In this document: positions 33,012 to 47,200 of the stretch, piece by piece
Numbering within the stretch: the first letter of the stretch is position 1
Layout: every line of letters begins with the position of its first letter
Assembly: GCF_900113605.1 (NCBI RefSeq)
Contig: NZ_FOPY01000008.1
Location: 1-64,000 of the forward strand
Length of the DNA: 64,000 nucleotides
Direction: 5' to 3'
Source of the DNA: Modicisalibacter xianhensis
GTDB lineage: Bacteria; Pseudomonadota; Gammaproteobacteria; Pseudomonadales; Halomonadaceae
Notes under the pieces: model-generated
Seen by the model: only the letters and a program-made list of their open reading frames with translations
The model's database searches: none
Told to the model about the DNA's origin: nothing
Position numbers and translations under genes: made by a program

Positions 33012-33758
33012 ATGATGAATAGCTATTCCCCTTCATCCAGCGATGAGATTTCGCTGGTAGATCTCGTCGTGCTTCTGGTCAGGCGCTGGAAGCTGATGCT
33101 CGCCGTTTTTGCGATGACCCTCCTGGCCGCCATTGCAGTGGCGCTCATGTGGCCGACCACCTATACCTACACTTCGCTGTATGCCATTGCCGAGACGCAA
33201 GACGACGAAGGGAAGGCCAAGCCCCTGGAAGCAGCGAACGCATTACTTGCCCGGCTGCGCCTCCAGATACAGCCCAGTGAGGTGCGCCAGCTATTGGCGG
33301 ATAAGCGATGGCACCAGTTGCCTTTCGACCTGTCATTCAGCCAGCCGCAGGGAACCGGGCTGATTGCCCTGACGACACAGGCCCAGGAAAGCCAGCAAGA
33401 GGCGGTAGAGCAATTGCATCGCGAGCTGCTGGACGCCTTGGCACACACCCAGCAGACACTCGTTGAACGTACCGAGCGGTCGTTGACGTACCGGCTCGAG
33501 GCGCTGCGCTCAGCCATCCAGCAGGTCGGGGTCGTCGACGGCAATTTGACAGCAGCCGTGAGCCGGCTCGAGGCGCAACTGACAGCATTGCAGGCAGGTG
33601 AGGTATCGCAGCTCGCGGTACGCAGCCTGGAGCCCCAGGGGGTTTCCGCCTGGCTTGTCGTCGTGGCAGGCGTTCTTGCAGGGTTGGTATTGGCTATCGT
33701 TGCTGCGTTTGGCAGCCATTTTTCCGGTGCCGTTAGACAACGGCTTACGCACGGTTAA
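33012..33758 (+). CDS. Wzz-like polysaccharide chain-length protein 1
   Basis: A 248-residue inner membrane protein with the Wzz layout: a conserved start [19 protein letters not shown], first membrane helix (about 29-50), a periplasmic coiled-coil region (about 60-205), and second helix (about 212-235). It lacks the cytoplasmic kinase of Wzc types. It closely resembles the second copy at 34040, including SLEPQG/SLEPAG before the last helix. It lies upstream of the ops site and so probably outside that operon. Confidence 0.82.
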   Translation: MMNSYSPSSSDEISLVDLVVLLVRRWKLMLAVFAMTLLAAIAVALMWPTTYTYTSLYAIAETQDDEGKAKPLEAANALLARLRLQIQPSEVRQLLADKRWHQLPFDLSFSQPQGTGLIALTTQAQESQQEAVEQLHRELLDALAHTQQTLVERTERSLTYRLEALRSAIQQVGVVDGNLTAAVSRLEAQLTALQAGEVSQLAVRSLEPQGVSAWLVVVAGVLAGLVLAIVAAFGSHFSGAVRQRLTHG

Positions 33759-33973: not shown

Positions 33974-34002
33974 GCCCGGAACAATCTCCGGGCGGTAGCG
34001 TG
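33974..34002 (+). promoter_or_regulatory. ops element (RfaH recruitment site)
   Basis: GGCGGTAGCGTG at 33991-34002 is an exact copy of the classical operon polarity suppressor. It overlaps a 7-bp stem-loop GCCCGGA/TCCGGGC (33974-33980 with 33987-33993). In enterobacteria RfaH binds the ops non-template strand in paused polymerase and prevents termination through long polysaccharide operons. It lies 38 bases before the second wzz-like gene and is on the correct strand. Confidence 0.85.
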
Positions 34003-34039: not shown

Positions 34040-34810
34040 ATGACCCCTCAAGACAACTCCACCTATCGTCAGTACGACGACGAAATCTCCCTGGTCGATC
34101 TCGCTACCATCCTGGTCCGCCGTTGGAAGGCGATGGCAATCATTTTTGTCATCATCGTCGGTCTGGCGCTTGCCTATGCGATACTTGCCCCGCGCTCCTA
34201 CAGTTACTCCTCCATCTATAACGTCGCTGAAAAGGCGCCTGGAGCACCGCTCGAATCGCCGGAGTCGCTAGTGGCCAAGGCCAAAAACCTCTATCTCGGC
34301 CCGGTAACACGAGAACTCCTGGCGAAGACAGGACTCGTCAACCTGCCTTTCGACGTACGTATCGAGAACCCGGAAGAAACGCTGCTGGTGACGTTATCCT
34401 CGCAAGCCAGCGAAGCCGACCAGGAGATTGTCGCCCAACTCCACGAAGGGGTGCTGGCTCGTCTGCAGCAGGGGCAGCAAAGCATGGTGGAGCGTCAAAC
34501 CGAAGCGTTAAAACGTCAGCTCGAGAGTGCCAGGCAGTCACTGGAAACGATACGTGGCTCGGAAAGCCTGGGGGCGGCTGAAGTCACGGCGAGCATCATG
34601 GGGCGAATCGCCAATCTCGAAGCCGAGCTTGAAGAGTTAACGGGCGGAGACGTTGGGCAAACAGCGGTACAGAGTCTGGAGCCCGCAGGGACGAGTCGCA
34701 TCATAATTGTTGCCCTAGCTATTGTACTGGGTGCCATTCTGGCCATTACCGGTGCCTTCCTGTTGCAGTTCAGCTCTCTCGTTCGGTCGAGCTTGAAAGA
34801 AAACGGTTAA
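34040..34810 (+). CDS. wzz: Wzz-like polysaccharide chain-length protein 2
   Basis: A 256-residue Wzz-type copolymerase: [19 protein letters not shown], first helix about 30-50, periplasmic coiled-coil part with Glu/Gln-rich helices (about 125-200), and second helix about 217-240. It controls chain length together with a Wzy polymerase in known systems. It is the first gene after the ops element and so heads the polysaccharide operon. It is a paralogue of the gene at 33012. Confidence 0.85.
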
Positions 34811-34830: not shown

Positions 34831-36156
34831 ATGAACGTGACGGTATTCGGGACTGGTTATGTCGGCCTGGTACAAGGAGCAGTGCTAGCGAACGCAGGCC
34901 ACAACGTTGTCTGTGTCGATGTCGATAGCCACAAGATCGAGCGCCTGAAGGAGGGGTTCATCCCGATCTATGAGCCGGGGCTGGAGTCACTGGTCAAGGA
35001 AAACTACAGCGAAGGCCGGCTCGACTTCACGACCGATTCTTCCCAGGCCGTGACACATGGCGATATCCAGTTCATTGCCGTCGGTACCCCGCCTGACGAA
35101 GATGGCTCTGCCGATCTCAAGTACGTGCTGGCCGTGGCCGAGACCATTGCACAGCATATGGACCGCCATCAGATCATCATCGACAAATCCACCGTGCCGG
35201 TCGGCACCGCCGACAAGGTCAAGGCCAGGATTGCCGACACGCTGGCAGCCCGCGGAAGGTCCGATCTCACCTTTGATGTGGTGTCCAACCCGGAATTCCT
35301 CAAGGAAGGTTCCGCCGTTGCGGATAGCCAGAAACCTGATCGCATCGTCATCGGCACGGATAGCGAGCATGCCGAGGAAGTGATGCGTGAACTCTACGCA
35401 CCATTCAACCGTATCCATGAAAAGATCATCGTCATGGATGTGCGTAGTGCAGAGCTGACCAAGTATGCCGCCAACTGCATGCTGGCCACCAAGATCAGCT
35501 TCATGAACGAGATGGCCAACCTGGCCGAGCGCTTGGGCGCCGATATCGAAATGGTCCGACAGGGCATCGGCTCCGATCCCCGCATCGGTTATCACTTCAT
35601 CTATCCTGGCGTCGGGTATGGTGGCTCCTGCTTTCCCAAAGACGTTCAGGCCCTGATTCGCACCGCAGACGGTATCGACTTCGATGCCAAGGTGCTCAAG
35701 GCCGTGGAAGCACGAAACTATGAGCAGAAGACGACGCTGTTCCAGAAGATCCAGAGCCACTACGGTGACGAGCTGAAAGGCAAAACCTTCGCCCTCTGGG
35801 GTCTGGCCTTCAAGCCTAACACAGATGACATGCGCGAAGCCCCAAGCCGCGTGCTGATGGAAGCGTTGTGGCAGGCCGGCGCCAAGGTTCAAGCTTATGA
35901 CCCCGAAGCCATGGAAGAAACCCAGCGCATCTATGGCAGCCGGGACGATTTGTCGTTGTGCGGCACCAAGGAGGCCGCGCTCAAAGGGGCTGATGCCTTG
36001 ATCATCGTGACCGAGTGGAAATCCTTCCGAGCGCCGGACTTTGAGCTGATCAAGCAGCAGCTAAGCCTACCGATCATTTTCGACGGGCGTAACTTGTATG
36101 AGCCCAAGCGGATGAGTAAGAAAGGAATTACCTATTACTCGGTTGGCCGGCTATGA
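34831..36156 (+). CDS. ugd: UDP-glucose 6-dehydrogenase
   Basis: The 441-residue enzyme oxidises UDP-glucose to UDP-glucuronate with two NAD+. Visible: the N-terminal fold [20 protein letters not shown], the catalytic Cys in [25 protein letters not shown] and the C-terminal UDP-binding domain. A related UDP-ManNAc dehydrogenase activity is a less likely alternative. It supplies an acidic sugar for the polymer. Base composition is still that of the host chromosome, unlike the genes after 36.2 kb. Confidence 0.92.
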
Positions 36157-36217: not shown

Positions 36218-37348
36218 ATGATTAAAACTTTGTGTGTATTCGGAACAAGGCCGGAAGCGATAAAAATGGCACCGTTAGCCTTGTCCTTGGCTGCTGACGG
36301 GCGTTTCGATGCCAAAGTATGCGTCACTGGACAGCATAGGGAAATGCTCGATCAGGTGCTGAATTTGTTCGAGCTAGTACCGGATTATGATTTAAATATC
36401 ATGAAGCCTGGACAGGATCTGTCAGACGTCACGACTGCCATTCTTCAGGGCATGAAGCACGTACTCAAGGAAGTCAAGCCAGACATCGTACTTGTCCATG
36501 GTGATACGGCGACCACATTTGCCACAACACTAGCGGCTTATTACGAGCGTATACCTGTAGGCCATGTGGAAGCAGGGCTGAGAACGGGCAATATCTATTC
36601 ACCCTGGCCTGAAGAGGCGAACCGAAAGCTGACTGGCACACTGGCCGAGTTGCACTTCGCTCCGACAGAGCGATCACGGCAGAACCTGCTGGAAGAGGGG
36701 ACGGCGCCAACCAAGGTGCATGTGACAGGTAATACGGTGATTGACGCGCTTTTGGATGTCGTACGTAAGTTGAAAGATAGCGGTACCTTCCAAGCGCGCT
36801 TTTCGTCACAGTTCGATTTTCTGGATGCTGAGCGCAAGCTGATTCTCGTTACCGGACATCGCCGGGAAAGTTTCGGAGGAGGGTTTGAGAGAATCTGTCA
36901 GGCGCTTAGGGAGACTGCAATAGCACATCCAGAAACGCAAATCGTCTATCCGGTTCATCTCAATCCCAACGTAAGAGAGCCCGTACAGCGGCTATTGTCG
37001 GATATCGACAACGTTCATTTGATAGAACCCCTCGATTATCTTCCCTTCGTTTACTTGATGAATCGAGCCGAGATCATTCTTACCGACTCCGGTGGCATAC
37101 AGGAAGAAGCGCCTTCGCTCGGGAAGCCTGTGCTAGTAATGCGTGAAACCACCGAACGACCGGAAGCAGTTATAGCAGGTACAGTCAAGCTTGTAGGTAC
37201 AAGCCAAGAAAAAATAATTACTGAAATTGAGCAATTGCTAACGGACAAGAAAGCATATCAAGAAATGAGCTATGCACATAATCCATATGGTGATGGTAAA
37301 GCTTGTTCTCGAATAAAAGAACATATTTACAATATGTTTAATATATAG
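36218..37348 (+). CDS. wecB: UDP-N-acetylglucosamine 2-epimerase (non-hydrolysing)
   Basis: A 376-residue GT-B-like enzyme that interconverts UDP-GlcNAc and UDP-ManNAc. Conserved parts: [47 protein letters not shown], and the C-terminal [28 protein letters not shown]. The gene is where composition changes, with an AT-rich 3' end. UDP-ManNAc is a likely building block of the polymer; no matching ManNAc dehydrogenase other than the Ugd-like protein is present. Confidence 0.94.
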
Positions 37349-37358
37349 GTATTTGTGC

Positions 37359-38099
37359 ATGGTCTTTTTTTTATTGCTCGCCGTTGTGATAATTTTTTCG
37401 TTCATACATTTAATTGAAGTAGCATCTTTTTTTGCAAGAGTGGCGGGAGTGAAAAAAGGAAATACTGCTTTTGGCTATGCGCTTCAGAATTCAGTCTTTA
37501 TGTTTACTCGTGTCTTTACAATGTTGTTGCTGCCTTTGTTAGGTTATTTAGTGGACTTAAAGATTAGCGAAGATTTTTATCTGGGTATGGTCGCGCTATC
37601 GTTACTTTCTGCTAGTTTTTTTGGTTATGTTGTTATAACTCACAAGGAAAGAGTGATAGCAGCTTTTCAAAAAATTATAACTGCTTACGAAGAAAATGGA
37701 AAATTGTTTTTTAAGATGATTTCTTTCCCTGTGCATTTTATGAGAACGTCAGGAGTTATAAAGAATAAGCCATCACTATATACTTTAAAAAATTATGTTA
37801 GAAACAGTTTTTTTTGGGGGGGGGCAATAATATTCGGCATTTATTCTATATCAGTGTTAATGTCTTTCTATTTTGGTTTGGTTTTTTATGAGTACAGAAC
37901 AACAATATCACAGCTTTCTGGGATTAGTAATGCGTTAGCCACAGTTATTTTAACATTTTACATCGAACCAAGAATGTCAGGGATTATTGATAATAATAAA
38001 GAGAGCGCTGTTGATAGTATAGAGTGCTTAATGTATGGAAGAGTAATAGGCACATTTGTGTGTTTTGTGTTCTTTTGTTTGTATATTGTTTACAATTGA
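37359..38099 (+). CDS. Amj-type lipid flippase family protein
   Basis: The 246-residue polytopic membrane protein (about six helices) resembles the Amj (alternate to MurJ, DUF2837) lipid II flippases: an N-terminal FIHLIEVASFFARVAGVKKGN, FTRVFTMLLLPLLGYLVD, and QLSGISNALATVILTFYIEPRMS near the end. It is in a polysaccharide operon that lacks a visible Wzx, so it probably flips undecaprenyl-linked repeat units (inference). The ATG at 37359 is preferred over a TTG six bases upstream. A T8G9 run at codons 151-156 makes it a candidate for phase variation. Confidence 0.75.
   Translation: MVFFLLLAVVIIFSFIHLIEVASFFARVAGVKKGNTAFGYALQNSVFMFTRVFTMLLLPLLGYLVDLKISEDFYLGMVALSLLSASFFGYVVITHKERVIAAFQKIITAYEENGKLFFKMISFPVHFMRTSGVIKNKPSLYTLKNYVRNSFFWGGAIIFGIYSISVLMSFYFGLVFYEYRTTISQLSGISNALATVILTFYIEPRMSGIIDNNKESAVDSIECLMYGRVIGTFVCFVFFCLYIVYN
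37808..37824 (+). repeat. T8G9 homopolymer tract inside the flippase gene
   Basis: Eight T followed by nine G encode FFWGG (residues 151-155). The G run is extreme for an AT-rich gene. Gain or loss of one G would shift the frame and remove about 90 residues, including the last helices. Confidence 0.9.
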
Positions 38100-38120: not shown

Positions 38121-39209
38121 GTGAAAATATTGGTGATGTGTCAAGACTACCCTAGCGATAAAAACAAGTACGCGATGTCCTATGTGCATACAAGGAATAT
38201 TAATTATCAGTTTTATGGACACGAAGTTTACGTGTTAAGTTTTAGCGCTGAAAGAAGCTATAGCTATCAAGGAGTAAAAGTTTTTTCTGAAAAAGATTTA
38301 CCTAAAAAGGAATTTTCAGAAGCAGAAGTGGTTTTATCTCATGCCCCTAATTTAAAAAATCATGTTAGGCTTCTATTGCAAATTAAAAATCAGCAGGTTG
38401 TTTTTTTCATACATGGGCATGAGGTCTTGAAAAAATATAAGGATTATCCTCAAGAGTATCCTTGGAAAAGATCCAACAAGCTTAAGGAATTTTTGCATAG
38501 GGCATATGATGAAATAAAAATTAGCTCATTAAAATATTTATTCAAAATAATAGGGTTGAGAAATGATGTAAAATTTGTTTTTGTAAGCAAGTGGATGAAG
38601 CAGCAATTTGCTAAAAATGTTGACTTTAAATTTGAAAATAAGTATATCTCCACTATTATCCCCAATGCTTCACATAACTCTTTTTTGACAAAATCCCATA
38701 GAAAAATTGAAAATTGTTTAGGCGATTTTATTACGATAAGGCCATTGGATGACTCTAAATACGGTGTTGATTTAGTAGTTAATTTTGCATTGGCTAATCC
38801 GTGCTATCAAATCCACTTGTATGGTAAAGGAAATTATTTCAAACATAACGAAAAGCCAAGAAATATTGTTTGGCATGATTGTTTTATAGAGCAATCAGAA
38901 ATACCAGGCTTGCTGGATAAATATAAAGCAGCATTAATGCCTACACGATATGACTCGCAAGGAGTTATGATGTGCGAGATGGCCTGTTATGGAATACCAT
39001 TAGTTACCACTGACATGGAAATAACGAAAGAGATGCTGTTGGGTTTCGATAATGTCTATCTTTTAAAAGAAAGTGATTTCAGTAAAAAATTTAATATCAA
39101 AGTTGAGGAAATGATAGAAGAAAAAAGATCAACAGCCAAACTTAGGTTCGATGCAAAGACACTTATTGGTCAAGAGATTCAATTTTTTACAGACGGTCAA
39201 GTAAATTAA
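38121..39209 (+). CDS. glycosyltransferase, GT-B fold (GT4-like)
   Basis: A 362-residue cytoplasmic protein. The GT4-type C-terminal nucleotide-sugar signature is seen in LMPTRYDSQGVMMCEMACYGIPLVTTDMEI, with a basic central region. The N-terminal half (KILVMCQDYPSDKN) fits the acceptor domain. Start is GTG at 38121. Strongly AT-rich with rare codons for this genome. Sugar and linkage are unknown. Confidence 0.75.
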   Translation: MKILVMCQDYPSDKNKYAMSYVHTRNINYQFYGHEVYVLSFSAERSYSYQGVKVFSEKDLPKKEFSEAEVVLSHAPNLKNHVRLLLQIKNQQVVFFIHGHEVLKKYKDYPQEYPWKRSNKLKEFLHRAYDEIKISSLKYLFKIIGLRNDVKFVFVSKWMKQQFAKNVDFKFENKYISTIIPNASHNSFLTKSHRKIENCLGDFITIRPLDDSKYGVDLVVNFALANPCYQIHLYGKGNYFKHNEKPRNIVWHDCFIEQSEIPGLLDKYKAALMPTRYDSQGVMMCEMACYGIPLVTTDMEITKEMLLGFDNVYLLKESDFSKKFNIKVEEMIEEKRSTAKLRFDAKTLIGQEIQFFTDGQVN

Positions 39210-39211
39210 AG

Positions 39212-40186
39212 ATGACCTTAGAGCTATTGTCATATTTGTATTTATGCGCATTATGCTTTGTTCTCATAAAAATAAAAGACAAGGTGAGGTCGGTTACATA
39301 TGTGTTCATTTCGCTTTTATTTTACTCAATAATTGTTAGAATCTCTGGCTTTGATGTTGATATGAAGGTTTATACAGACGTCTTAAAAAAAGACGATCTG
39401 GATGGTTTTTATTACCTGAAAGAGCCAGTATACTGGTATTTTTCACATTACTTATATAAGGTAATAAATTCTGAAACTTGGACGTTTGTTATTATTGATA
39501 GCATGGTGTTTTTTTTAACAATTAAAAGCGTAAAAAATCTAAAACTGCCTGTTTATACAGCTCTCGCATTGCTATTGTTTTTTCCTTACTTGCTGGGCCT
39601 GCAAAACGTATATAGACAGCTTTTAGCAACTGTTTTATTAGTTTATTTTTATAGCATTTGTTATAAAAATAGTAGCAATGGCCATAAGCTTTTTGTATTT
39701 ATAATTGCTGGCTTGACGCATAATGTCGCGTTATTATTTTTCCCTATTTATTTTCTTTTCAAAAGTAAAGTGTCGCTAATATTTTTTGTTTTATCTGGCG
39801 CACTAATATTAATCTTGCTTCCCTATGTTGTTTCTTATAAATCAGTATCAGAGACTGGTCTCGAATTAAAATGGTTTTATGTTTCAATTATTGGGATAGT
39901 TTGTATCATATCAGCGTTTTTTTACTTTACTTATGACCTCTTAAAGATAAATATTTTCTTATGCAACCTTTATTTGTTTGTTATTTCGTTATATGCATCG
40001 TTTATTTTGGGAGGTGCGCAGTCTGAGAGGCTTAGTATGATTTGTTTGGTTCTATTATTGTGTAATTTATTCGTTCAAATAGAAAGTAGATTTAAAGAAA
40101 AGAAAACAATTGCATTTATTACCTGCGTTGCATTGTTTTTACCTTCTTTTTTATTTTCTAGCACTTTTTACTTTTTAACCACCTGA
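39212..40186 (+). CDS. EpsG-like polysaccharide polymerase
   Basis: A 324-residue protein with about ten hydrophobic helices. It has the EpsG/Wzy-type pattern: an acidic loop after helix 2 (SGFDVDMKVYTDVL), then GLQNVYRQLLATVLL and GLTHNVALLFFPIYFLF with conserved Arg, Gln and His-Asn. It most likely polymerises repeat units in the periplasm. AT-rich; starts two bases after the preceding gene, so it is in the same transcript. Confidence 0.75.
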   Translation: MTLELLSYLYLCALCFVLIKIKDKVRSVTYVFISLLFYSIIVRISGFDVDMKVYTDVLKKDDLDGFYYLKEPVYWYFSHYLYKVINSETWTFVIIDSMVFFLTIKSVKNLKLPVYTALALLLFFPYLLGLQNVYRQLLATVLLVYFYSICYKNSSNGHKLFVFIIAGLTHNVALLFFPIYFLFKSKVSLIFFVLSGALILILLPYVVSYKSVSETGLELKWFYVSIIGIVCIISAFFYFTYDLLKINIFLCNLYLFVISLYASFILGGAQSERLSMICLVLLLCNLFVQIESRFKEKKTIAFITCVALFLPSFLFSSTFYFLTT

Positions 40187-40216: not shown

Positions 40217-40996
40217 ATGGCTAAAGTTTCAATAATTATGCCTCTGTATAAATCAGGAAATTACTGTTTTGAGGCTATAGAAAGCGTGTTGAACCAAAGC
40301 TATCAGGATTGGGAGTTAATTTTAGTTGATGATGCTTCGGGAGATTCAACTTTACATATAATTAAAGAAAAGTATAACGATAAACGCATTTTGACATATG
40401 AGCTTGAAAAAAACAGTGGACCAGCGGTGGCTCGAAATCACGCTCTTTCAAAAGCCCATGGGCGTTATATAGCTTTTTTGGATTCGGATGATTTATGGAG
40501 GCCTAAAAAGTTAGAAAAGCAGTTAAAGTTTATGATATCAAACGATATCGAGTTTAGCTACACTGCTTATGAGAAAATTAACTATAAGGGGGAGCACATG
40601 GGTTTCGTTGGCGTTCCTGATTCAGTCAACTATAATGTTTTGTTAAAAACATGTGTAATAGGTTGCCTAACCGCAATTTATGACTCTGCCAAACTGGGTA
40701 AAGTCAACATGCCCGAAATAAGTAAAAGACAAGATTTTGCACTTTGGCTGAAATTGTTAAAGAAGACTAAGTTTGCCTATGGAATTCCAGAGCCGCTAGC
40801 AATATATAGAGTTCATTCCGATGGAATATCTTTCAATAAAAGAAAGGCTGCCATATATACGTGGAAAGTATATAGAGAGGTGGAAGGTTTTAGCGTATTA
40901 AAAAGCACATATTATTTTTTCCATTATGCGATACGTGGCTTAATCAGGGCGAAGTGGCCAACTTTAGCAAGAAAGCTTGGTGTCATGCATAAGTGA
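40217..40996 (+). CDS. family 2 glycosyltransferase
   Basis: A 259-residue GT-A enzyme: KVSIIMPLYKSGNYCFEAIESVLNQS, the nucleotide-binding LVDDASGDST, the RNHALSKAHGRYIAFLDSDDLW segment with the DxD-type metal motif, and a later KRQDFALWLKLL catalytic region. It adds one sugar to the lipid-linked repeat unit; specificity is unknown. Confidence 0.9.
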   Translation: MAKVSIIMPLYKSGNYCFEAIESVLNQSYQDWELILVDDASGDSTLHIIKEKYNDKRILTYELEKNSGPAVARNHALSKAHGRYIAFLDSDDLWRPKKLEKQLKFMISNDIEFSYTAYEKINYKGEHMGFVGVPDSVNYNVLLKTCVIGCLTAIYDSAKLGKVNMPEISKRQDFALWLKLLKKTKFAYGIPEPLAIYRVHSDGISFNKRKAAIYTWKVYREVEGFSVLKSTYYFFHYAIRGLIRAKWPTLARKLGVMHK

Positions 40997-41029: not shown

Positions 41030-42307
41030 GTGGATATAAGTTATGAGCGCCGTCATTCGAGATGGTATGAAAAAATTCTTTTAGGTATGTCTTTTCAATT
41101 GCTAATAGGGCTTCCAGTAATAATCTGCGCTCCCGCTATTAATCGCTGGGGATGGGATTTCTGGATGTATTTACCTGATGTGCGGGTAAATACTTTGGCT
41201 GCTATAGGTGGGGCTTTTTTAATAATAGTTTTTTCATTAAGAAGGCTTCTAAAATTTCCTGGTGTTAAAGTTGTAGCTTATATCGCTCCTACGGTAACAA
41301 TATGCTTCTTAATTTCTATGGCTATACTTTTTTTTGCTAGAGAAAGGTACTCTAGGCAAGTTTTGTTTACTGGATATTTGCTCAGTATGCTCTGGTTTTT
41401 TTCTGGTTATTTTATTGGCTTACGTTACCGTAGATTAAAGCTTGCAGTTATCCCTGTTGGTCAAGCACTAAATTTGTTGCCGACTTCTAATATAGAGTTG
41501 CGCTATCTTAAACAACCTACATTAAATAGAGTTCGAGTGGATGGTATAGTTGCTGACTTACATGATGAAGGTCTAACTGCAGAATGGGAAAAGTTTTTAG
41601 CAAAGTGCACGCTTTCTCATATTCCCGTCTATCATATTAAGCAAATTAAAGAATCAATTACTGGAAGAGTTGAAATCGAACACCTTTCTGAAAATGCGTT
41701 TGGAACTCTATTGCCATCACCTATGTATAGTTTTTTTAAAAGGGTTGCAGATATCGCACTTGTGTTGATTATTCTTCCGCTAACCCTTCCTGTAATGTTA
41801 ATAACAGCTATAATTATCAAATTAGATAGCCCCGGTCCTGTCTTCTTTACACAGGATAGAGTTGGTCAAGGTAATCGTAGTTTCAAAATATACAAGTTTA
41901 GGAGTATGGCCAAAGATTCAGAAAGTAATGGTGCTCGCTTAGCTCAGTCGAACGATATGCGAATTACTCGAATAGGTAGGTTTATCAGGAAAACTAGATT
42001 AGATGAGTTTCCTCAGTTTTATAATGTTCTTAGAGGAGATATGAGCCTTATTGGACCTAGGCCTGAGCAGAGAGCTTTTGTAGATTTGTTTGAAGAGCAA
42101 ATACCATTTTACATATATAGGCATGTAGTTAAACCTGGAATTACTGGTTGGGCACAAGTAGTTCATGGTTATGCGAGTGATGCTGATGATACACGGATAA
42201 AAATTCAGCACGACTTTTATTACATAAAAAATTTTTCATTCTGGCTTGATGTGCTTATTGTTTTTAAAACTATAAAGACTTTGCTTACTGGTTTTGGTGC
42301 TAAATAA
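41030..42307 (+). CDS. polyprenyl glycosylphosphotransferase (initiating sugar transferase)
   Basis: The 425-residue enzyme attaches sugar-1-phosphate to undecaprenyl phosphate and starts repeat-unit assembly. N-terminal helices (about 17-37, 60-76, 83-105, 116-137), a soluble middle part, then the catalytic domain (about 240-425): KRVADIALVLIILPLTLPVM, KFRSMAKDSE, RKTRLDEFPQFYNVLRGDMS, LIGPRPE and PGITGWAQV. GTG start at 41030 with GGTGGGG before it. Galactose- or glucose-1-phosphate are possible donors, given galE next door. Confidence 0.92.
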   Translation: MDISYERRHSRWYEKILLGMSFQLLIGLPVIICAPAINRWGWDFWMYLPDVRVNTLAAIGGAFLIIVFSLRRLLKFPGVKVVAYIAPTVTICFLISMAILFFARERYSRQVLFTGYLLSMLWFFSGYFIGLRYRRLKLAVIPVGQALNLLPTSNIELRYLKQPTLNRVRVDGIVADLHDEGLTAEWEKFLAKCTLSHIPVYHIKQIKESITGRVEIEHLSENAFGTLLPSPMYSFFKRVADIALVLIILPLTLPVMLITAIIIKLDSPGPVFFTQDRVGQGNRSFKIYKFRSMAKDSESNGARLAQSNDMRITRIGRFIRKTRLDEFPQFYNVLRGDMSLIGPRPEQRAFVDLFEEQIPFYIYRHVVKPGITGWAQVVHGYASDADDTRIKIQHDFYYIKNFSFWLDVLIVFKTIKTLLTGFGAK

Positions 42308-42317
42308 GGTGTCTGTG

Positions 42318-43337
42318 ATGAATGTGCTTGTTACTGGTGGGTGCGGATATATTGGGTCTCATATGACTCTTTCTCTTATTGAAAACGATTACGAGGTGGT
42401 TGTTTTAGATAATTTTTCAAATTCCTCACTTGAGTCGCTAAAGCGTGTTGAAGTATTAACTGGCAAAAAAGTGAATTTTATTGAAGGGGACGTATGCGAC
42501 AAGGTTTTGTTAAAACATATTTTTTCGCAGTATAATATAGACCATGTTTTACACTTTGCTGGTCTCAAGTCAGTAGGTGAAAGTGTCAATAAACCACTTC
42601 AATATTACGAAAATAATGTTTTAGGTGCCCTGTCCTTGTGTCATGTCATGGATCAAGTAGGGGTACGAAATCTTATTTTCAGTTCTTCAGCTACCGTCTA
42701 CGGTGATGCTAAGATAATGCCTATCCATGAAGGAATACCTACGGGTAGCCCTACTAATCCTTATGGTCGGTCGAAACTTATGATAGAAGAAATTCTTAAT
42801 GATCTAGTTAAAGCCGACCTTGGCTGGTCAGTAGGTATACTGAGGTATTTTAATCCAGTCGGGGCTCACCCAAGTGGAGTGATCGGAGAGGATCCAAATG
42901 ATATTCCCAATAACCTCGTTCCCTTTATTTCACAAGTTGCTATTGGTTTGAGAAAAGAGTTATCTATATTTGGCAATAATTACGACACTTTCGATGGCAC
43001 AGGCGTTCGTGATTATATCCATGTTATGGATTTAGTTGATGGGCACTTGAAAGCCATGAAAAAGATTTCTAATAAAACAGGTTTGGAAATATGGAACCTA
43101 GGAACAGGAAACGGCTACTCTGTATTGGAAATAGTTAAAGCATTCGAAAATGCTTCGGGAAAAAAAGTCCCCTTTAAGTTTGTGTCTCGTCGTGAAGGTG
43201 ATGTGGCCTCTTGCTGGGCAGACGCTACAAAGGCTGAAAGAGAGTTAAACTGGAAAGCGAAGTGCTCTTTGGTTGAGATGATGGAAGATACATGGCGTTG
43301 GCAAAGCAATAACCCAAATGGTTACAAGACAAGTTGA
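42318..43337 (+). CDS. galE: UDP-glucose 4-epimerase
   Basis: A 339-residue extended SDR that interconverts UDP-glucose and UDP-galactose (or the N-acetyl forms). The NAD fold VLVTGGCGYIGSHM, the Ser of SSSATVYGDA, the catalytic YGRSK and the C-terminal DYIHVMDLVDGH and GTGNGYSVLEIV are present. ATG at 42318. It is the last AT-rich biosynthetic gene of the operon. Confidence 0.93.
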   Translation: MNVLVTGGCGYIGSHMTLSLIENDYEVVVLDNFSNSSLESLKRVEVLTGKKVNFIEGDVCDKVLLKHIFSQYNIDHVLHFAGLKSVGESVNKPLQYYENNVLGALSLCHVMDQVGVRNLIFSSSATVYGDAKIMPIHEGIPTGSPTNPYGRSKLMIEEILNDLVKADLGWSVGILRYFNPVGAHPSGVIGEDPNDIPNNLVPFISQVAIGLRKELSIFGNNYDTFDGTGVRDYIHVMDLVDGHLKAMKKISNKTGLEIWNLGTGNGYSVLEIVKAFENASGKKVPFKFVSRREGDVASCWADATKAERELNWKAKCSLVEMMEDTWRWQSNNPNGYKTS

Positions 43338-43417: not shown

Positions 43418-44785
43418 TTGAGTATAAATTATTCATTGCAGTCACCCTATACACCTTTTAGTTGTTGTCCAAGGATTATTTGGTGCTTAGGGAGTATAGG
43501 GTTATTTTTTTACGCTTTATTCTTAGTCCTATTCCCCGTCATAGGCGGGCCAGCAGAAACCTTCATGGCAGTGCTTGGCTTGTTTTCTTTGCTCCTCTGG
43601 GGAGGGAAGCTTCGAAAAGGCGCAGCGTTGTGGCTCTTACTAACCGTTATTTTTTTACAAGTGCTTTCTTGGTGGCTTGGCTATTTGCATCATCCGCAAT
43701 GGGTCGAAGAAAACCCTAAAATTGACCGCCTCGCGAAGCTTTTTATATTCATAAGTGTTGCTTGGTGGCTTGGAGGAAGTACTGTTCGTACTTTCTTTAT
43801 TTGGGGAGTTGCGTTGCTTGGCTTTTTTACTGCGCTATTTTTTCACGGGGACGGATATATTGAATGGTTTAAAGGTGTAAGTGGGTATCGGGTGGATTTC
43901 GGTATTCGTAATGCTCAGCATACTTCCATGTATTTCGGTGCAGGACTCTTGGGGTTGCTAGCCTTTGCAAGACGCAGCTTGTTTGGAGGCAGGTGGTTAA
44001 TATTTCGCCGTTTGGTTTGGGCAATTTTTTCAACAGTTTTCATTACCGGTGTAATAATTACACAAACCCGTGGAGTATGGCTGGCATTGATTTTCGTGCT
44101 GCCAATAATGGCTGGCCTTTTCTTTTGGTGGTATTTGCATACATTTCCTCAAAAAAACTCTCGACGGGTACTCTTTGCTGGATTTATAGCTATTTTTGCA
44201 GTGGCAACTGTTATCGGTAACATTGGCTATGACACCCTCGCAAAGCGTCTTGAAACGGAGAAGCCAGCGATAGAAAGTATTCTAACTGGAGATTTTTCTA
44301 AGATTCCTTACAGCAGTGTTGGGGTTCGTATTCATACATGGCGCGCCGCTGCGGAGTGGATCGCTGAACGTCCGATCGTTGGTTGGGGGGCTGATGGCCG
44401 TAGCCTGGCCATTGACGAGACGGAATGGATGCCACAACGGATCAAGGACCAGTACGGCCATCTTCATAATTACTTTCTTGAACTATGGGTCGCCTACGGC
44501 TTGCTAGGTGTTGCAGTTTTCGCTGCCTTGGCTTTCTGGGTAGGACGTGGCACGTGGCTGGCCTGGCGTAGTGGGGTAATGCCGAACGACATGGCTTTGT
44601 TCGGTGTCTCGTTCTTTATCTACTGGGTCATCGTCAATCAATTCGAGTCGTACAATTCCTTTTGGACGGGCGTGTTCGTGCACAATCTTGTCGTGGGTGG
44701 GTTGGTTACCCATTACTGGCGTTGGCAATTGACCCGTGCACGAGATGACGATAGCCAGCCGCAACCTACCAGTCAGCCGGAATAA
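43418..44785 (+). CDS. O-antigen ligase family membrane protein
   Basis: A 455-residue protein with about ten helices and the Wzy_C/WaaL-type periplasmic loop: ITQTRGVWLALIF, RIHTWRAAAEWIAERPIVGWGADG and the conserved HLHNYFLELWVAYGLLG. Members join O-antigen to lipid A-core or polymerise chains. Since an EpsG-like polymerase already exists, ligase is favoured. The TTG start at 43418 is uncertain. Composition rises from AT-rich to normal within this gene. Confidence 0.82.
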   Translation: MSINYSLQSPYTPFSCCPRIIWCLGSIGLFFYALFLVLFPVIGGPAETFMAVLGLFSLLLWGGKLRKGAALWLLLTVIFLQVLSWWLGYLHHPQWVEENPKIDRLAKLFIFISVAWWLGGSTVRTFFIWGVALLGFFTALFFHGDGYIEWFKGVSGYRVDFGIRNAQHTSMYFGAGLLGLLAFARRSLFGGRWLIFRRLVWAIFSTVFITGVIITQTRGVWLALIFVLPIMAGLFFWWYLHTFPQKNSRRVLFAGFIAIFAVATVIGNIGYDTLAKRLETEKPAIESILTGDFSKIPYSSVGVRIHTWRAAAEWIAERPIVGWGADGRSLAIDETEWMPQRIKDQYGHLHNYFLELWVAYGLLGVAVFAALAFWVGRGTWLAWRSGVMPNDMALFGVSFFIYWVIVNQFESYNSFWTGVFVHNLVVGGLVTHYWRWQLTRARDDDSQPQPTSQPE

Positions 44786-44795
44786 GGGACTTATT

Positions 44796-45932
44796 GTGCA
44801 CACCCTGGTGATCGTACGCAGCCTGAAGATGGGCGGCATGGAGCGGGTGGCTTGTAACCTCGCTGACGCCTTTGCCGAAGCCGGCCATGATAGCCATATG
44901 TTGGTGTATCGCAAACGCGACCAAGGGCTGGCGCCGGAGCATCCCGACGTCAGGGTGCATGTCTTTCCGCTGCGCTGGTGGATCCGTGCCACCATCGTTG
45001 GCTTCTTTCTGGAACTGTTGGCACGTTTGGTCATGAATCCCTTGATCCCTCGTTCGTATTTTGTATGGACAGGATGGCTAGGCGGTCAACTGCTGCGCCT
45101 GTGGCTGTGGCGGTTCGAGAAGCGCCATGGGCGGCTGGATAGAATTGTATTCCGAGGGGTGGGTACCTTCGAGTTGGTCTGGAGCTATCGCGATGTACGG
45201 GCCCGCTTTGTTTTGGAGAACAACCTGCCAATCAAGAAGGATGCCTGGCGTTATCGGCTGTGTGCCAAGTGCCTGTATCCCGGTAAGCACTTAGTGGCTG
45301 TGTCGCAGGGCGTGGCGGAGACAGTTCGCCAGGCCCAGGCCAAGTGGTCGTTTCAACCGGCGTCGTTGCAGGTGATCGTCAATCCTTGCCCGGTGGGGCG
45401 CATTCGCGAGTTGATGCTCGAGGAAACACCCGATTTGCCTGACGAACCTTATATCGTCAACGTGGCGCGCCTGGTGCCACAGAAAGACCATGAACTGTTA
45501 TTGCGTGCCTATGCCCAGGCACAGCCCGAGCTACCCTTGGTCATTGTCGGCGATGGCCCTTTACGGCAATCGTTGGAGGATTTGGCAACGAACCTGGGGA
45601 TTGCCGATAGGGTGCATTTTGCCGGTCATCGAAACAACCCTTACCCTTGGATGCATCATGCCCGGTTGTTTGTGCTGAGTTCCCGGGTCGAGGGGATGGG
45701 CATCGTGCTCACGGAGGCGTTGGCCTGCGGCACGCCGGTCATATCCGTCGATTGCCCTGGGGGAATTCGTGAAGTGCTGAAGGGGGAGCTGGAATCTGCC
45801 ATCGCCCCCCATGACATCCCCGGTCTAGCTGACAAACTGAAAACCGCTCTCAACGGGCCTAAGCCTGCTATAAGTGATAAGTGGCTGCATGATTTTTTAC
45901 CGGGTCGCGTTGTAGATCGCTTCCTTGAGTAA
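44796..45932 (+). CDS. glycosyltransferase family 4
   Basis: A 378-residue GT-B enzyme: N-terminal RSLKMGGMERVACNLADAFAEAGH, and C-terminal IVNVARLVPQKDHELLLRAYA and SSRVEGMGIVLTEALACGTPVISVDCPGG, with the retaining GT4 E-x7-E pattern. The GTG at 44796 is chosen because AAGGGA lies six bases before it and it follows the ligase stop; the frame is open earlier and overlaps. It probably adds an outer core or O-unit sugar. Confidence 0.87.
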   Translation: MHTLVIVRSLKMGGMERVACNLADAFAEAGHDSHMLVYRKRDQGLAPEHPDVRVHVFPLRWWIRATIVGFFLELLARLVMNPLIPRSYFVWTGWLGGQLLRLWLWRFEKRHGRLDRIVFRGVGTFELVWSYRDVRARFVLENNLPIKKDAWRYRLCAKCLYPGKHLVAVSQGVAETVRQAQAKWSFQPASLQVIVNPCPVGRIRELMLEETPDLPDEPYIVNVARLVPQKDHELLLRAYAQAQPELPLVIVGDGPLRQSLEDLATNLGIADRVHFAGHRNNPYPWMHHARLFVLSSRVEGMGIVLTEALACGTPVISVDCPGGIREVLKGELESAIAPHDIPGLADKLKTALNGPKPAISDKWLHDFLPGRVVDRFLE

Positions 45933-45973: not shown

Positions 45974-47200
45974 ATGGCTAGGATGGCTGTCGACAAACAG
46001 GACCTTTCGAATCCGCGCATTGGGCATCTGGTGAGCCTAAAGAACCTTGGCGGGATAGAGCGTTACTTCACGCGATACTATGCCCGTTTCGCTGCCGAAT
46101 ATGACCAGCACATATTGAAGCAGACCGATGGCATTCATCCATTACTCTCGCCTTATTACAAACAGCATGCGGCTGGGCGTATCCACAGCATCAAAGGGCC
46201 TGGAATCATCAAGATACCCCGTGCCTTCCCAGGCCTTCGCTTTCGCTATCAAAAGGCGCTGCTCGTACGGCTGAGGATAGAAGCGATTCTGGTCTGGGGA
46301 AAGATTGTCAATCACCCGCTGAGCTTTCCGGACAACATGCCAGTCGTTCATTTCGAGCGGGGCAGTGCCTGGCTGGTGAATGATCAGCCCGCCTTGCATA
46401 CCTATCTGAAGCGTCTCGACGGAGCGCTATGCAATTCCCATGCGGCGCTGCGTATGCTGCATTTGAAGTGGGAGTTGAGCACCGACTTGCCTTCACGTGT
46501 TCTTTATAACTCCATTGAGTTACCGGCCAACCATGCGGTACATCCCGAGGGGCGTTTTCGTCTGGGCTTTGCAGGCCGTCTGGTGCCGTTGAAGGCACCC
46601 ATGGTAGCGCTGGAAGTGTTTGCCGAGTTGAAAACCCAACATCCCCACGCGGAGTTCTGGATAGCCGGGGAAGGGGCGTTGGAGGATACGCTGCGCAAGC
46701 AGGCCAAGCAGTGGGGGTTAGAAGACAGCGTGCGCTTCTGTGGGTTGGTCGATGACATGGCGTCGTTCTATTCGTCGTTGGATGCTTTTATTTGCCCCTC
46801 CTGGCGTGAGCCATTCGGCAATGTGGCGCAAGAGGCCTTGGCTTACGGCGTGCCTACTCTGGTCGGCGCTGTCGACGGGCTGGCGGAACAGGTGCGGGAT
46901 GGCGACAACGGTGCCGTGCTATCGCCCAGGCGTGAACGTCGCGAGCTGGGCAAATACGGCCAGGCATGTCTGCAGGGGCCTGACGAAGTCTATTCCCCGG
47001 AGCAGGATGCCATCGTCCAGGCGGGCATTCTCGAGCCGGAAGAGGCGGCGCGGGTATTGGGAGAATGGGCCGAAAACCCTGCCCTTCGCCGCGAGATGGG
47101 CGCCAAGGCGCGAACGAGGATTCGCGATGAGTTCAATATCGATCAGTACGGCCAGCAACTGGTCGGCTTCATGAGCGAAGTTATTGCCAGACGACGGTGA
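45974..47200 (+). CDS. glycosyltransferase family 4
   Basis: A 408-residue GT4-type enzyme. The donor-binding half shows LGFAGRLVPLKAPMVALEVF, FWIAGEGALED and CPSWREPFGNVAQEALAYGVPTLVGAVDG. A likely insertion (about 310-345, rich in charged residues, QACLQGPDEVYSPEQDAI) lies near the C-terminus. The gene ends three bases from the convergent YrbL-like kinase. Probably LPS core assembly, from context. Confidence 0.85.
   Translation: MARMAVDKQDLSNPRIGHLVSLKNLGGIERYFTRYYARFAAEYDQHILKQTDGIHPLLSPYYKQHAAGRIHSIKGPGIIKIPRAFPGLRFRYQKALLVRLRIEAILVWGKIVNHPLSFPDNMPVVHFERGSAWLVNDQPALHTYLKRLDGALCNSHAALRMLHLKWELSTDLPSRVLYNSIELPANHAVHPEGRFRLGFAGRLVPLKAPMVALEVFAELKTQHPHAEFWIAGEGALEDTLRKQAKQWGLEDSVRFCGLVDDMASFYSSLDAFICPSWREPFGNVAQEALAYGVPTLVGAVDGLAEQVRDGDNGAVLSPRRERRELGKYGQACLQGPDEVYSPEQDAIVQAGILEPEEAARVLGEWAENPALRREMGAKARTRIRDEFNIDQYGQQLVGFMSEVIARRR

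Follow-up and report, generated by a model that had tools for sequence, protein, structure and literature searches.

An Amj-family protein as putative repeat-unit flippase in surface polysaccharide operons without Wzx

Introduction

Which protein moves the repeat unit across the inner membrane when a Wzy-type polysaccharide operon has no gene for Wzx? Wzx is taken to be a normal component of Wzy-dependent assembly and is also used as a serotyping marker (PMC4732683, in the passages available). The question is raised by a 64,000-nucleotide stretch of the Modicisalibacter xianhensis genome (positions 1 to 64,000 of contig NZ_FOPY01000008.1; hereafter the window), in which the only transporter-like gene of a surface polysaccharide operon resembles Amj, known as a lipid II flippase. 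An earlier paper asks if Amj serves lipid II alone or is promiscuous (PMC4990322, available in part), and the accessible portions of two other papers treat Amj solely as a lipid II flippase or as a reporter (PMC12826051, PMC11081497). The lethality of murJ amj loss in Bacillus subtilis is relieved by overexpression of UppS (PMC12096821, partial text), so that, as far as that text goes, the accepted role of Amj is itself debated. We found no prior report of Amj in a polysaccharide locus in the literature searched, which was limited to listings, the beginnings of abstracts and selected passages, the original Amj paper being outside its scope.

Results

The window amj gene belongs to a run of 13 genes, all on the forward strand, that begins with two wzz genes and ugd and ends with two genes for GT4-type glycosyltransferases. 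The Wzz-like chain-length proteins (33012–33758 and 34040–34810) match PF02706 at 30.9 and 30.7 bits, respectively (cut-off 25.5). In the leader, 37 nt 5' of the second wzz, lies an exact ops-like element, GGCGGTAGCGTG (33991–34002, forward strand), a motif that we take to be ops, the recruitment site of RfaH. The 11-base degenerate ops core has this single match in the window, where 0.37 matches are expected and 35 of 100 shuffles contained at least one; no JUMPstart was found in the window in a search allowing three mismatches. After the wzz pair come a dehydrogenase of the UDP-glucose 6-dehydrogenase type (Ugd, 34831–36156; PF03721, PF00984 and PF03720, with TIGR03026 above cut-off) and the UDP-GlcNAc 2-epimerase WecB (36218–37348; PF02350, and TIGR00236 at 528 bits, cut-off 210). 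The amj open reading frame (37353–38099 from a TTG start, or from an ATG at 37359) starts 4 nt past wecB, and 21 nt downstream of it begins the gene for a GT4-type glycosyltransferase (38121–39209; PF13692 at 27.8 bits, cut-off 27). The remaining genes encode an EpsG-type polymerase assigned to the Wzy role (39212–40186; PF14897 at 45.6 bits, cut-off 30.1), a TuaG-like GT2 glycosyltransferase (40217–40996; PF00535, and NF047683 at 290 bits, below its cut-off of 400), a priming phosphoglycosyl transferase (41030–42307; PF02397 at 230 bits, with TIGR03025 above cut-off), the UDP-glucose 4-epimerase GalE (42294–43337; TIGR01179 at 455 bits, cut-off 262), an O-antigen ligase-like protein for which ligase and polymerase cannot be separated by sequence (43418–44785; PF04932 at 73.4 bits, cut-off 31.7), and the two closing GT4-type enzymes (44736–45932 and 45974–47200; both PF00534). 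Priming transferase, polymerase, Wzz and ligase-type protein, the set expected of Wzy-dependent assembly, are all present by Pfam or NCBIfam, and the operon parts named in a preliminary description of this DNA (PF02397, PF14897, PF02706 twice, PF04932, and the GT2- and GT4-type enzymes) were all recovered. Each gene from amj to galE has a GC content of 0.30–0.40, compared to 0.57–0.60 for both wzz genes and ugd, a difference that fits an acquired cassette.

Three approaches indicate that the window encodes no Wzx, as the same description had held for the operon. None of the 20 window proteins scanned with Pfam matched a MOP family. Among a non-overlapping set of window open reading frames, those picked for at least eight hydrophobic segments encoded only DctM, the EpsG protein, the Wzy_C protein and TctA, and a MOP HMM run over the 64 kb gave no match. 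In leave-one-out analysis this HMM recovered 15 of the 19 proteins of its set, some of which are near copies of each other; the four missed were two MurJ-type proteins, one MatE protein and L106. Because of these misses, open reading frames with at least eight hydrophobic segments were also checked by Pfam or, for the loci L025 and L027, by the annotation of the record. The 20 scanned proteins likewise include no ATPase or permease for ABC-type export of O antigen or oligosaccharide.

The source genome does encode MOP proteins elsewhere, these being MurJ (468 bits), a MatE-type protein on contig C25, and a single PF01943 Wzx on contig C30 (47.4 bits). A Wzx from another locus could consequently flip the window repeat unit in trans, with Amj in an accessory role, and the relaxed specificity discussed for some flippases (PMC4990322, in the part available) would allow for this. 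The C30 gene, however, is part of a different polysaccharide locus, one that encodes a PF02397 priming transferase of its own together with a WecG-type transferase and a GalE-type epimerase. Judged by this gene content, the C30 Wzx most likely serves its own locus, although a role in trans cannot be excluded from sequence. Thus a wzx outside the window, which would have told against the preliminary description if needed for the window polymer, does exist; that it is needed is unlikely, yet not excluded. The C30 locus (L015:250-11705) also contains, along with Wzx, sulfotransferase-like, PAPS-reductase-domain, GTP_EFTU (CysN-like) and inositol-phosphatase-type genes. This content suggests that the C30 polymer may be sulfated, and the sulfate-activation-type genes, like the locus's own priming transferase, argue against service to the window.

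The window protein itself (246–248 amino acids) could be assigned to the Amj family with little ambiguity. PF10997 was its sole Pfam match at E≤1 (E = 1.8e-25; 90.2 bits, cut-off 27), with residues 15–239 aligned to profile positions 4–242; no NCBIfam model matched. The proposed likeness to Amj is therefore upheld by the HMM search, and the better match to another family that would have undone it was not found in Pfam at E≤1. In profile-profile comparison, the Amj proteins of polysaccharide loci aligned to canonical Amj with a probability of 99.6 over 228 columns, with other Bacillota Amj proteins used in place of B. subtilis Amj itself, whereas comparison with ten MOP proteins gave an hhalign probability of 0.7, meaning no detectable homology. 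Residues in common with canonical Amj are R29, G32, L44, R53, P61, S189, N193 and P206 (numbered from the TTG start); that R29, R53, N193 and P206 have a role in diphosphate binding is only a guess.

A structure model of the protein (37359–38096) is of modest quality (pLDDT 64.5), having been built from two sequences, and is too weak to support a claim about the fold. Six long helices are present in the model (residues 2–33, 36–66, 71–94, 149–179, 184–212 and 217–245), in line with the roughly six membrane helices expected of an Amj protein. It is most like the membrane domains of ABC exporters (Z up to 9.1, rmsd 3.6 over 133 residues), a similarity within the noise expected for helical bundles, and a Foldseek search with it gave no match at E≤0.001. 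Sequence searches of the PDB detected no relative, the two matches at E>1 being cytochrome subunits, and none was found in the viral contigs and phages searched.

We examined what occupies the corresponding locus in congeners. Of 11 genomes of the genus searched, the source genome included, the wzz pair of the window is shared by two, G118 and G038, in neither of which a profile search found Amj. In G118 the order wzz-wzz-ugd is followed by four genes of rhamnose-pathway type, which include members of the RmlD and RmlC families, and then by a Wzx confirmed by Pfam. In G038 a Wzx, also confirmed by Pfam, lies approximately 12 kb from the wzz pair with unrelated genes between. Wzx is therefore present and Amj absent in both comparable loci, with G118 the clean case, and Amj and Wzx constitute a natural swap at the wzz-pair locus. 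That both congeners have a Wzx nearby and no Amj also speaks against flipping of the window unit in trans.

The preliminary description had called for a survey of amj genes in polysaccharide loci, and in such a survey the pattern recurs. With near-identical or same-genus loci counted once, a divergent amj was found in six distinct polysaccharide loci, none of which (0 of 6) has a wzx of its own: the window; the locus of Edwardsiella hoshinae with its plasmid copy; a Sphingobium plasmid; a galF-gnd locus of G948 and E. coli; the locus of G1519; and that of G1418 and G1563. The other divergent members match PF10997 at 54.6–79.1 bits, above the cut-off like the window protein. In E. hoshinae (G939) the order is dcuC, wecB, wecC, amj, polymerase, glycosyltransferase, heparinase-like gene and glycosyltransferase, followed by genes for a sugar-phosphate nucleotidyltransferase, a galE-type enzyme, Ugd and an epimerase, some of these names being taken from an annotated near-copy plasmid module. 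The cluster contains no wzx, and the sole PF01943 match of the genome at E≤1 is WzxE of the ECA pathway (701.6 bits; NCBIfam cut-off 325), whose gene is flanked by those for WecE and WecF. An O-antigen-type module of 10.9 kb, 97.4% identical to E. hoshinae, occurs at L025:8591-19503 (NZ_CP034402.1) and L031:6596-17506. Copies of this module are flanked by IS26, carry a dcuC fragment, and are borne by E. coli and Enterobacter hormaechei plasmids; the amj gene of the module was present in 5 of 5426 E. coli genomes.

On the plasmid of Sphingobium YBL2, amj lies among wecB, wecC and a glycosyltransferase gene on one side and, on the other, genes for a polymerase, a glycosyltransferase, a priming transferase, an acetyltransferase, an aminotransferase, a ligase, an export protein and a kinase. 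PF01943 had no match anywhere on the plasmid records W01 and W02. The loci of G1519, G1418 and G1563 contain wecB, wecC, amj and genes for a Wzy_C-type polymerase, a heparinase-like protein, a priming transferase and a Wza-type protein; two of these three stretches also encode Wzc. No MOP gene was found in the 60 kb around each of these amj genes. Across the six loci, wecB, usually with wecC, lies at most three genes from amj in five (window 36218–37348; L025, L027, L031, L074-L076), hinting that the polysaccharide branch of Amj may handle units with ManNAc or ManNAcA.

The chromosomal galF-gnd locus was found in G948 and in 4 of 5426 E. coli genomes, with the order galF, cytidylyltransferase, CDP-glycerol glycerophosphotransferase, GT2, polymerase-like gene, amj, GT2, gnd, ugd and wzz. 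In E. coli SC516 (L040:6027-15586) and three other strains this cluster adjoins an O8-type wzm/wzt locus, so that in these four strains the polymer of the Amj cluster may be a capsule and not the O antigen. Its product may be a glycerol-phosphate-bearing capsule or O antigen, expression as O antigen being unproven. Of the E. coli O-groups, 185 have wzx and wzy and 11 have wzm/wzt (PMC4732683, as given in the passages available); a galF-gnd cluster that holds a polymerase-like protein and Amj and, inside it, neither wzx nor wzm/wzt is exceptional. The polymerase-like proteins at L031:10764, L040:9707 and L077:2837 have no Pfam match and were assigned from where they lie, from their size or from how a near copy is annotated.

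These loci also bear on flipping in trans by another Wzx, such as WzxE or WzxC in the enterobacteria. The only Wzx around the galF-gnd cluster is WzxC of colanic acid, encoded just upstream of galF in G948 and the E. coli strains, and G948, like E. hoshinae, has WzxE as well. PF01943 genes occur elsewhere in G948, G1418, G1563 and G1519, and the six places inspected, out of 19, had no clear polysaccharide neighbour. A trans-acting flippase is thus formally possible in each of these cases, as it is for the window with its C30 Wzx. On the other side, Amj fills the gap repeatedly, in six distinct loci, and together with the dedicated setting of the C30 gene and the congener swap this leads us to regard a trans-acting Wzx as an improbable explanation, if still the most serious of those considered. 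The six loci can also be set against the proposal that export of the unit is carried out directly by the EpsG or the Wzy_C protein, Amj being a helper coupled to polymerase or ligase. Polymerase types vary among the Amj loci and transport cannot be read from them, which leaves room for this proposal; Amj is nevertheless the constant membrane protein across loci whose polymerase differs or has no Pfam type, and we give the proposal hardly any credence.

A further protein lies at the edge of the family. G1349 encodes, in a polysaccharide region, an even more divergent Amj-like protein of 230 amino acids with six hydrophobic segments (L077:4745-5437) that scores 26.8 bits (25.1 in the genome search) against the PF10997 cut-off of 27. 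It was left out of the main counts for this score and for a Wzx approximately 32 kb away on the contig; on its similarity it suggests that the Amj family may reach beyond the Pfam cut-off. Three weaker matches were dropped as below cut-off (G633, 18.9 bits; G640, 22.9 bits; G1053, 21.1 bits). The neighbourhood of the G633 match appears metabolic, and that of G1053 unrelated, with three stops inside the Amj-like match.

To place the divergent proteins within the family, PF10997 matches above cut-off were counted, own genomes being included where part of a set. Such matches occurred in 1 of 201 genomes of the family, 1 of 369 of the class, 3 of 322 of the order and 7 of 398 of the phylum. They were also present in 2 of 392 genomes from the family to which G939 belongs and in 46 of 298 from family f213. 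In the tree described below, the canonical Amj proteins of f213 cluster with those of Novosphingobium. Scores were bimodal, most exceeding 280 bits and a few full-length proteins scoring far lower. Besides the window protein, the low-scoring full-length proteins above cut-off are those of G939, G948, G1519, G1418 and G1563, the enterobacterial and Sphingobium plasmid proteins having been found by tblastn; low scores are likewise seen for canonical copies that are truncated (G703, G1410). The genomic context follows the same division. All nine divergent rows above cut-off have 6–9 polysaccharide genes within 8.5 kb (window 9), and G1349 has three, whereas 30 of 31 canonical neighbourhoods have no polysaccharide match within that distance and the other has two weak SDR matches. 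The count took in every open reading frame out to 8.5 kb, or as far as the stretch extended where it ended sooner. Several canonical stretches, namely L083 and those with 8-kb flanks, fall short of 8.5 kb on one side, and the canonical copies include the fragments L024 and L078. The polysaccharide reference set was assembled from the window, L015, L027, L031, L034, L038 and L040, leaving only L074-L077 as independent positives. In annotated records, Amj is solitary in Novosphingobium, Spirosoma, Paraburkholderia and five Bacillota plasmids.

A maximum-likelihood tree was built from 31 chosen rows (10 divergent, 21 canonical), omitting the short loci L044-L073, many of which hold the same genes. 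All Amj proteins of polysaccharide loci fell on one side of a single branch, with support of 96/91 when G1349 was included, 100/100 without it, and again 100/100 after additional removal of the window and Sphingobium rows; the window protein did not group with canonical Amj. The program flagged long branches. As the tree is unrooted, whether a lipid II flippase became a polysaccharide flippase or the reverse remains open.

The separate branch bears on the possibility that Amj in polysaccharide loci is an ordinary lipid II flippase, a backup for MurJ that offsets competition for Und-P. The homology of the window protein to canonical Amj does extend over its full length, and, in the partial texts available, B. 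subtilis Amj substitutes for E. coli MurJ and murJ/amj lethality is relieved by more UppS (PMC12096821, PMC4990322). The source genome, however, already has a MurJ scoring 468 bits, the proteins of polysaccharide loci form a branch apart that has diverged further than solitary Amj, and a MurJ backup would leave the loci with no flippase of their own. We therefore think a backup role very unlikely.

Discussion

From the anatomy observed here (family membership, gene content, absence of Wzx at the locus, recurrence, a separate branch, and Wzx in the congeners), we infer with a probability of roughly 0.8 that, in place of Wzx, Und-PP-linked repeat units are flipped by a branch of the Amj family dedicated to this task. 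That the protein is a flippase, which substrate it carries, and the premise that nothing else flips the window unit are inferences made without transport or genetic data. The window operon would accordingly make a surface polysaccharide of the Wzy type that is probably acidic. The PF02397 enzyme would prime undecaprenyl phosphate, and the glycosyltransferases would lengthen the unit with sugars supplied by WecB, Ugd and GalE. Passage of the Und-PP-linked unit through the inner membrane, for which Wzx is responsible elsewhere, would fall to the Amj-family protein, after which the EpsG-type protein would polymerise it under the control of Wzz, and the ligase-like protein would join the chain, probably to lipid A-core. 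Amj would derive from the fast-diverging branch found in polysaccharide loci and would have arrived with the low-GC cassette.

The preliminary description saw here a cell-wall flippase family serving polysaccharide export. Service to export is supported by operon, recurrence and congeners, its function remaining inferred, while the notion that the protein was drawn from cell-wall synthesis is not established by an unrooted tree. A broader proposal, which we favour with appreciably less assurance, is that PF10997 is a second, Wzx-independent family of flippases for Und-PP-linked glycans, with a slow branch for lipid II and a fast one for O-antigen, capsule and exopolysaccharide loci across Proteobacteria, including E. 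coli, that moves between species with its cassette; Wzx would then not be required by the Wzy pathway. The NCBI names on the polysaccharide branch, 'DUF2837 family' and 'lipid II flippase family protein', are labels given by homology, and if the main reading is true the latter is functionally wrong for this branch. The same reading would explain loci seemingly without a flippase and would bear directly on whether Amj is dedicated to lipid II, the question posed in the accessible part of PMC4990322. A non-homologous, half-sized replacement of Wzx would also provide a small natural system for studying the minimal needs and the specificity of a flippase.

Like Amj (YdaH) of B. subtilis, a lipid II flippase of PF10997, the window protein is a full-length match to the family; unlike canonical Amj, proteins of its type lie in polysaccharide operons rather than alone, form a separate branch, and score 55–90 bits compared to more than 280 for most solitary proteobacterial Amj. 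It holds the same place in a Wzy-type operon as Wzx (MOP, PF01943), which the congeners have instead, but is without detectable homology to Wzx and has approximately 246 amino acids and six long helices as against about 12 transmembrane segments. The Wzk/PglK ABC flippases likewise flip Und-PP glycans without a MOP protein, whereas the Amj operon has no ATPase gene among the 20 proteins scanned. Wzk can also replace MurJ (PMC4990322, available in part). The teichuronic acid operon is similar in its enzymes, in that the best NCBIfam equivalogs are TuaD for the window Ugd and TuaG for the GT2 enzyme, neither reaching cut-off. The flippase for teichuronic acid is TuaB, a MOP protein, and where that operon has TuaB the window has Amj.
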